Both the position numbers and the translations under genes were made by a program. A stretch of 64,000 nt of DNA from Gemmatimonadota bacterium (GTDB lineage: Bacteria; Gemmatimonadota; Gemmatimonadetes; Gemmatimonadales; GWC2-71-9). The notes under the pieces are model-generated. The model made no database searches. It worked only from the letters and a program-made list of their open reading frames with translations, and was not told the origin of the DNA. Shown here piece by piece: positions 2,381 through 3,971 of the stretch (the stretch's first letter is position 1; every line of letters begins with the position of its first letter). The stretch is taken from contig JAPULZ010000160.1 in assembly GCA_027294455.1 (NCBI GenBank), positions 1-64,000 of the forward strand, given 5' to 3'.

Positions 2381-2412
2381 GCGAGCTTCCCAGTGAAATG
2401 GCGAGAATCGTA

Positions 2413-2450
2413 GCGGACGGACCCGTCCGTCCGCCTAACGGCACGTGCCG
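2413..2450. repeat. Hairpin and 12-bp palindrome in the permease leader
   Basis: Two adjacent symmetric elements lie 33-70 bases upstream of the permease start. The first is a 9-bp stem, GCGGACGGA/TCCGTCCGC, with a 4-base loop (2413-2434). The second is a perfect palindrome, CGGCACGTGCCG (2439-2450). The hairpin would fold in the 5' leader RNA. The palindrome has the form of a dimeric repressor operator. Neither is followed by a T tract, so a terminator is unlikely. The binding protein is unknown. Confidence 0.5.
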
Positions 2451-2485
2451 CCCTACGGGAGCGGTGGGATGTTCGTTTCAAGGGT

Positions 2486-2512
2486 GACGGCCGAGCGCGT
2501 GGCTCGGCCGTC
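2486..2512. repeat. 11-bp stem-loop without T tract
   Basis: A perfect 11-bp inverted repeat, GACGGCCGAGC and its complement, encloses the 5-base loop GCGTG. It could end transcription arriving from either side, but no run of T follows on either strand. An RNA-stability or attenuator role is therefore equally possible. Confidence 0.4.
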
Positions 2513-2863
2513 GAAATTCACGGTCCGTGGCGTTGCCGGTGGCGACTAGGGATGCGGTTCGGAACGGTTGGACTCCTTACTCGTGCGACAGACGTCGACT
2601 GGCGCTGGGATTACACAAGGGAAGCGCCTGGCGAACGCCACGCCGCGTAAGGGCGGCCTGCGGCGAGGAGCCTGGGCTCGCGCCCCGTCGGTACGCGGGA
2701 GATCACGAGCGCGCCGTCAACAACTCTTCGACGGTCGCACCTTGGTGTCTGACGCCGGGGAGGTTCGCTTCCCCGCACCTCCATCACTCCACCGCCCGAG
2801 TTCCCTGGATTCGCGGGCGGTTTCGCGTTCCGAGTTGATCTTCTGAAGGCAGGGAATCACCCG

Positions 2864-2869
2864 TATCTT
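2864..2869 (+). promoter_or_regulatory. Candidate -10 box (TATCTT) of a leaderless transcript
   Basis: TATCTT ends 8 bases before the ATG of the kinase remnant, which would place the transcription start at or next to the start codon. TTCTGA lies 17 bases upstream as a weak -35. The same arrangement recurs before aspS and the radical-SAM gene. There is no Shine-Dalgarno sequence. Confidence 0.4.
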
Positions 2870-2877
2870 AGGCCCCC

Positions 2878-3036
2878 ATGAGCGGCCAACTCCAACGGCT
2901 GACGGCCGCCCTCGTCGACCGGTACGATATCCTCGAGCCTCTCGGCGAGGGAGGAATGGCCATGGTGTATCTCGCCTACGGCGTGAAGGACTGGTTCGTC
3001 GAGTTGAGACAACGCATGGGCGAAACCAGGAACTAA
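2878..3036 (+). pseudogene. Truncated Ser/Thr protein kinase remnant (52 residues)
   Basis: The product opens MSGQLQRLTAALVDRYDILE and continues into PLGEGGMAMVYLA. This is the N-terminal lead and glycine-rich ATP loop of bacterial Hanks-type (Pkn) kinases, in the style common in Gemmatimonadota. The reading frame leaves the family straight after that strand, before the invariant VAIK lysine, and ends YGVKDWFVELRQRMGETRN. No catalytic loop or other kinase core is present, so it cannot phosphorylate. The DWFVEL tail resembles, from memory, the closing segment of C-terminal propeller domains on such kinases. An in-frame internal deletion joining both ends of one gene is therefore possible. A start codon and -10 box remain, so a microprotein could still be made. 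An assembly join is the alternative. Confidence 0.7.
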
Positions 3037-3049
3037 CCAAGGAACCCTC

Positions 3050-3055
3050 TACTTT
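3050..3055 (+). promoter_or_regulatory. Candidate -10 box (TACTTT) before a TTG start
   Basis: TACTTT lies 4 bases before the TTG start of the epimerase gene. A transcript from it would begin at or inside the start codon, matching the leaderless pattern seen elsewhere in the window. No Shine-Dalgarno sequence precedes this TTG. Confidence 0.3.
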
Positions 3056-3059
3056 TCCT

Positions 3060-3971
3060 TTGAGCAAAGTTCTCATCACCGGGGCTTCGGGTCTGATCGG
3101 GGGTCGCCTCGCCGCATTGCTGCGCGAGCGGGGCGACGAGGTCGTCGGGCTCGTCCGCGAGGGATCGCGGGCGGACATCCCGACCCGCCATTGGTCTCCG
3201 GCTACCGGAAACCTCGAGGCGCTCGTGGTGTCGGGCTTCGACGCCGTGGTCCACCTGGCTGGCGAGAGCATCGGCGAGAGTCGCTGGACCAAGGCCAAGA
3301 AGAAGAGAATTTACGAGAGCCGAGTGCAGGGGACCTCCGTACTCTGTGAGGCTCTTGTCCGGGCTCCCAAGCGCCCTGACGTGCTGGTCTCGTCGTCTGC
3401 GGTGGGGTATTACGGCGATGGGGGCGAGGACATCCTGACGGAAGAGTCGGAGCAGGGGATGGGCTTCTTGGCGGACGTTTGCGGCGCGTGGGAAGAAGCT
3501 ACCGAACCGGCTCGCAGCGCCGGGATCGCCGTCGTCTTGCCGCGAGTGGGGCCGGTTCTCAGCACGCACGGTGGGGCGCTGGCCAAGATGCTCGGGCCGT
3601 TCAAGCTGGGTCTCGGCGGGGTAGTGGGGTCGGGTAGCCAATACATGAGCTGGGTTGCCATCGACGACGTTGTCAGGGCCCTGTGCCACCTCATCGATCA
3701 CGGCACGTCCCTGGCGGGACCCATCAACGTCGCGGCACCGAACCCCGTCACCAATCGCGAGTTCACCAATACCCTCGGCCGCGTGATCCACCGGCCCACG
3801 GCCATCCCGCTCCCGGCCATAGCCGCCCGCCTGGTGCTGGGAGAGATGGCCGACGAGCTCCTCCTGGTCAGTCAACGCCTCTCGGTTGGCCGGCTGCTGG
3901 ATTCGGGGTTTGCGTTCCGGTATCCCGAGCTCCAAGGCGCCCTCGAGCACATCATCTCGTCGGAGGGCTAG
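3060..3971 (+). CDS. TIGR01777-family NAD(P)-dependent epimerase (SDR, YfcH-like)
   Basis: Extended short-chain dehydrogenase of 303 residues. The N-terminal Rossmann motif LITGASGLIGGRLA is present. VVHLAGESIGESRW is the family signature, SSSAVGYYGD is the catalytic-region strand, and the C-terminal DUF1731-like part contains the AIPLPAIAARLVLGEMADELL segment. The usual family length is about 300. The TTG start is chosen because it begins SKVLITG exactly where the family begins. The cellular substrate is unknown; members are sometimes linked to cell division or sugar-nucleotide-like substrates. Its stop overlaps that of convergent ppdK by 4 bases, so the two transcripts run into each other. 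It shares no operon with the purine genes. Confidence 0.9.
   Translation: MSKVLITGASGLIGGRLAALLRERGDEVVGLVREGSRADIPTRHWSPATGNLEALVVSGFDAVVHLAGESIGESRWTKAKKKRIYESRVQGTSVLCEALVRAPKRPDVLVSSSAVGYYGDGGEDILTEESEQGMGFLADVCGAWEEATEPARSAGIAVVLPRVGPVLSTHGGALAKMLGPFKLGLGGVVGSGSQYMSWVAIDDVVRALCHLIDHGTSLAGPINVAAPNPVTNREFTNTLGRVIHRPTAIPLPAIAARLVLGEMADELLLVSQRLSVGRLLDSGFAFRYPELQGALEHIISSEG

Follow-up and report, generated by a model that had tools for sequence, protein, structure and literature searches.

A 52-codon reading frame in a Gemmatimonadota genome is probably the in-frame deletion scar of a Hanks-type kinase gene

Bacterial pseudogenes that arise by internal deletion have both ends of the gene, have lost its body and have no orthologue that is kept. 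The proteins closest to the frame described here are Hanks-type Ser/Thr kinases with a C-terminal PD40/WD40-like propeller (PF00069 + PF07676), with which it shares its first 37 and last 15 residues while lacking the lysine, the catalytic loop, the metal site and the propeller. Expanded families of WD40 and TPR kinases are described in Planctomycetota (PMC11032199) and, in the accessible part of that paper, are likewise large and lineage-specific with repeat or propeller C-termini; words beginning with 'pseudogene', 'fragment' or 'truncated' are absent from its text, and in the same part remnants are not treated. Among the open-licence PubMed Central papers listed in our searches, and in the accessible parts of PMC11032199 and PMC10783764, we found no description of kinase remnants in Gemmatimonadota.

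The window analysed here comprises the first 64,000 bases of contig C69 from genome G000, an assembly of 4.2 Mb and 254 contigs with a contamination of 6.08%. An ATG-to-stop frame of 52 codons lies at 2878-3036 and has the translation MSGQLQRLTAALVDRYDILEPLGEGGMAMVYLAYGVKDWFVELRQRMGETRN. The preliminary description had read it as a kinase remnant that keeps its promoter, start and ATP loop, and the sequence confirms the open reading frame, its coordinates and its translation, together with a glycine-rich loop, GEGGMAMV at residues 23-30, which matches GxGGMAxV. The kinase lysine region, the HRD loop and DFG, described as gone, are indeed absent from the 52-residue translation. Profiles for HRD-DFG and the activation segment had no match on contig C69, no kinase-body match follows the head, and Pfam returned no family for the 52 residues at E up to 10, the Pkinase cut-off not being reached. 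The features of the locus are as follows.

2762 to 2783, plus strand: copy of a tmRNA 3' end, the 22-mer GGTTCGCTTCCCCGCACCTCCA (exact pattern match), adjoining the putative scar and outside it
2864 to 2870, plus strand: TATCTTA, a -10-like box 8-14 nt before the ATG (T[AC]TTA enrichment; no -35 box)
2878 to 2988, plus strand: head, residues 1-37, kinase N terminus with glycine loop (homology; start profile E = 1.8e-14)
2989 to 3036, plus strand: tail, residues 38-52 and stop, C-terminal signature of Pkinase + PD40 kinases (signature pattern)
3060 to 3971, plus strand: Epimerase + DUF1731 gene (Pfam matches; orthologues in G001 and G003)

Scanning 84,980 species genomes yielded 24 loci; judging by the record titles, the best ten all come from Gemmatimonadota, and their alignments cover residues 1-33, 1-37 or 5-33 with 51-72% identity. 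At the DNA level the head was matched in 34 of 61 genomes searched. The best DNA matches in the three genus-mates (G001, G002 and G003) have 71-74% identity over 123-133 nt and begin at window positions 2856-2865, so that the stretch just 5' of the ATG is also common to these genomes. A start profile of 31 positions matched the window with E = 1.8e-14, and a PDB search with the window peptide ranked PknB and StkP at the top, with a weak E of 0.23. Among the matches listed, the closest head in the same genome (64% identity) lies on contig C129 and belongs to an intact Pkinase + PD40 kinase that ends in VVVNWFEALRASGNNGGQ; another, on C140, is 61% identical to the window head, and its kinase ends in VVENWFEELKALLGN. 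That the kinase with the closest listed head in the genome also has this type of tail favours a deletion within a Pkinase + PD40 gene. No full-length orthologue of 52 residues occurs among the 24 loci or among the genus matches listed; the preliminary description had named such orthologues in many species as the mark of a genuine small protein.

The tail was identified by comparison with the C-termini of full-length kinases. The kinases on C140 and C129, together with two others that end in VDNWFEELKRRVPN (L037) and VTENWFTELKRIVNKR (L038), are all of the Pkinase + PD40 type with 884-903 residues, and other kinases in these genomes have different C-termini. A DNA pattern for [DN]WFxEL[KR], composed after the 15-residue tail had been seen, has 20 occurrences across the four genus genomes, and its reverse has none. 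At 18 of the 19 places besides the window the signature stands 9-16 codons from the stop (15 codons in the window), and 13 of the 19 follow at least 500 open codons. G000, with its 4.2 Mb, holds five of the places, and three of the four other than the window end long kinase frames. Fewer than 60 open codons precede the signature at five of the 20 places, namely C30, C51 and C57 of G003, C14 of G000 and the window; G002:C423b, at a contig edge, was left out of this count of orphan tails. At G003:C57:1939 (L311) and G003:C110:1997 (L314) an intact kinase and an orphan tail agree in every base over the final 39 nt of the gene, counted from the NWF codons and including the stop, and over the 21 nt that follow, which points to recent copying or recombination.

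Checked separately, head and tail thus match the same kind of full-length gene, Pkinase + PD40, and elsewhere the tail signature is a kinase C-terminus, not part of an unrelated gene. This supports the in-frame deletion already proposed in the preliminary description, with head and tail drawn from opposite ends of one type of gene. The abrupt switch noted there near 2977 is real, though the join lies up to about 10 nt later, near 2977-2991: homology to kinase starts extends to residue 37 or 38, the DNA alignments end at about 2987-2991 and the tail signature begins at residue 38 (2989). We conclude, with a probability of roughly 85%, that the frame is the in-frame internal-deletion scar of a Hanks-type kinase gene with a PD40 propeller. 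On this reading the first 37 codons would have been joined to the last 15 by a single deletion, both ends coming from one gene, and some 830-850 codons would have been lost, a size estimated from the relatives of 884-903 residues (a whole kinase having about 900); the deletion could instead have fused two neighbouring kinases. The predicted product would contain the first strand and the glycine loop without the lysine, the catalytic loop or the metal site, and therefore cannot be a kinase.

We compared the site with that of the genus-mates. Upstream lies a 793-residue frame on the opposite strand, which we take to be an ADOP-type permease. The Epimerase + DUF1731 gene (Pfam) starts 23 nt after the stop of the 52-codon frame, and beyond it a long opposite-strand frame presumably encodes pyruvate phosphate dikinase (PPDK). 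G001 and G003 have the same epimerase gene (64% and 60% identity) with the PPDK neighbour, and no close epimerase match was found in G002. In both genomes in which the site is visible, G001 and G003, the 52-codon frame is absent, there is no intact kinase allele, and the 107 and 92 nt, respectively, that separate the tmRNA-like 3' end from the start of the epimerase gene contain no kinase sequence. We infer that a full-length kinase formerly stood at the window site, and that it was either gained and then lost in the window lineage or wholly lost in the lineages of G001 and G003. Taken by itself, the frame is an ordinary, lineage-specific scar.

The copy of the tmRNA 3' end stands 5' of the epimerase gene in three genomes of the genus, in the window, at L145 (G001:C50) and at L146 (G003:C30). 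None of the three copies is surrounded by a full tmRNA; there is none within the 64,000-nt window, and the full tmRNA of G001 lies elsewhere, on C122. The 22-mer pattern is present in 14 of 30 tmRNA loci (L185-L214), and the copy looks like the attachment-site copy of an element integrated at the tmRNA gene. An insertion targeted to tmRNA that delivered the kinase was nevertheless set aside, because the 22-mer occurs at only two places in G000 at up to two mismatches and the kinase lies outside any bracket that could be defined.

The preliminary description had held that the promoter survives. The -10-like box TATCTTA is present at 2864-2870, but a sigma-70 consensus scan of 2400-3200 called no promoter, and no -35 box was found by it. 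Among 102 unique kinase ATG starts, T[AC]TTA occurs 17 times at positions -20 to -5, against 0, 1, 0 and 0 in four equally wide upstream windows; T[AC]TTA was a second look, taken after TANNNT, which by itself showed no enrichment (11 of 83 intact starts, with 9, 10 and 5 in the comparison windows). In the same test CTTAG gave 11 against 2, 1, 0 and 2, and TTAGGC gave 0 in the last window. T[AC]TTA is position-specific for these kinase starts, and the TATCTTA of the window, at -14 to -8 relative to the ATG, would suggest a leaderless-type start. Column counts at kinase starts revealed neither a strong Shine-Dalgarno signal nor a strong fixed promoter profile. A hairpin at 2784-2840 was rejected as a terminator, being no better than shuffled sequences (z = -0.85) and drawing no terminator call from the consensus scan.

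We carried out a census of kinases in G000 and G001 with three profiles of equal length and depth, for the kinase start (A1), HRD-DFG (A2) and the activation segment (A3). G000 has 67 starts: 56 with a body, 4 cut off by a contig end and 7 lacking a body; the 61 starts of G001 divide into 41, 4 and 16, one of the 16 (C182) being of uncertain contig extent and three (C81, C89 and C12) weak matches. At E up to 1e-5, 17 of 89 starts in the two genomes are orphans (8 contig-limited and 1 uncertain left out), compared with 1 of 106 for A2 and 1 of 104 for A3 without neighbours (three at contig ends left out). Fisher's test gave p = 7e-6 and 1.6e-5, respectively, these values being rough since related starts are not independent. 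A partial start before an intact kinase (G000:C140:21196) was counted as having a body, so that orphans are undercounted.

A start and C-terminal sequence without a body were found in the window, G000:C113, G001:C94, G001:C7 and G003:C30. The frame is kept in G001:C7, not kept in G001:C94 and changed in G000:C113; since these cases are not all in frame, the open frame of the window is no sign of selection. When sequence 3' of 29 stubs was compared by BLAST with kinase 3' regions, 14 matched, against 4 of 29 in a reverse-complement control; many of the 14 matches are the start of the next kinase in the 3' region and only C-terminal matches were used, and the window is outside the 14. A test for clustering of breakpoints gave 25 of 29, but its p-value carries no weight here, the stub lengths having been read by eye with a lower detection limit near 18 residues. 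Some of the short frames, such as G000:C237 and G023:1282313, are no more than frameshifted kinases whose body is still there. At least seven heads without a body match were found in G023, a single-contig genome (in which long-read errors are possible), so that short contigs alone do not account for the pattern. In two single-contig genomes of another family, no head frame shorter than 347 codons (G043) and one weak 36-codon head match (G058) occur among the matches listed.

Orphan heads directly precede an M19 peptidase gene (G001:C213), amidohydrolase genes (G001:C1 and G003:C5) and others. A kinase start runs in frame into a glyoxalase-family protein at G000:C161:56816 (L278), and another shares an open frame with an S9 peptidase at G001:C101:2768 (L285). 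On the minus strand of G001:C61 (L277, about 2400-3100), an ABM monooxygenase gene stands between a kinase start and a kinase-like tail, VVENFFEELKARGGN, read from the sequence, as if the monooxygenase had replaced the kinase body. An AT-rich inverted repeat with arms like GGATGAATATCGAATA... and ...TATTCGATATTCAACTAGCC occurs in the gap that separates a kinase end, or the broken start of a kinase, from the next start codon at five loci of G001 and G003 (L283, L222, L290, L166 and L286); none lies beside the window scar.

These data bear on other explanations of the frame. A false join in the assembly, linking one kinase's start to its own end or to that of a different kinase, would gain from the contig number and contamination of G000 and from the tendency of kinase genes to break contigs (4 of its 67 kinase starts reach a contig end within 420 nt), but the joined pieces are unlike each other and so offer no bridge through shared k-mers, and the at least seven heads without a body match in G023 are similar stubs in a single contig; we consider such an artefact improbable. 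There is a still smaller chance that the head runs into unrelated sequence, as many stubs in these genomes do, and that the tail resembles a kinase end fortuitously. Its 15 residues are few and the pattern was composed with the tail in view, yet that pattern occurs only five times in 4.2 Mb and never in reverse, of the four other places three are the ends of long kinase frames, and the spacing to the stop agrees.

That the kinase-derived microprotein allowed for in the preliminary description has a function of its own would fit the open frame, its ATG, the conserved -10-like box and the intact glycine loop. We regard it as very improbable, however, given that no full-length orthologue exists in the 24 loci from 84,980 genomes or among the genus matches listed, that the frame is absent at the site in G001 and G003, and that similar stubs end in unrelated ways. 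The peptide is unlikely to have a function, and the scar is most likely dead. It may instead have been kept as a leader, its promoter and start now serving the epimerase gene 23 nt downstream. Spacing and strand suit that gene, the kinase part is lacking in G001 and G003, and other orphan heads also directly precede genes on the same strand; against this, a same-strand gene follows 16 of 22 orphan heads and 22 of 30 intact kinases, which is no difference, and the genus-mates presumably express the epimerase gene without a kinase part. This explanation is unlikely, though less so than the preceding ones. If the frame is a deletion scar, transcripts probably still begin from its box and ATG and extend into the epimerase gene.

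What was measured is ends without middles, and end-only scars recur in the genus. Promoter capture as their general cause was rejected on the same strand comparison, for which 23 orphan heads were examined and G001:C94 was dropped, its next frame being the remainder of its own kinase; at the window locus alone promoter capture may still hold. One candidate cause would be deletions the size of a gene, mediated by short G-rich matches of the glycine-loop codons with the last codons; another would be deletion up to the AT-rich inverted repeat found between tandem kinases in G001 and G003. We tentatively suggest, while holding it doubtful, that kinase genes in this Gemmatimonadota family undergo recurrent gene-sized loss with breakpoints near both ends (at one end within the glycine-loop codons or immediately past them, at the other among the last codons or in the 3' flank), leaving mini-frames with intact starts often directly before other genes, with the AT-rich inverted repeat as an edge at some loci and the window frame as an in-frame product.

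The census suggests that the very large kinase families of these bacteria turn over by losing whole bodies while start and end pieces remain, these pieces providing a countable record of kinase death alongside kinase birth. It also carries a warning for annotation: short frames with a perfect glycine loop in these genomes are not kinases, and kinase starts in frame with other enzymes (G000:C161 and G001:C101) can mislead gene callers. The window scar resembles known internal-deletion pseudogenes in its two ends, its lost body and its lack of a kept orthologue. It differs from ordinary deletion pseudogenes in that its frame is open, that the loss recurs at many loci of one family and that middles are almost never left.
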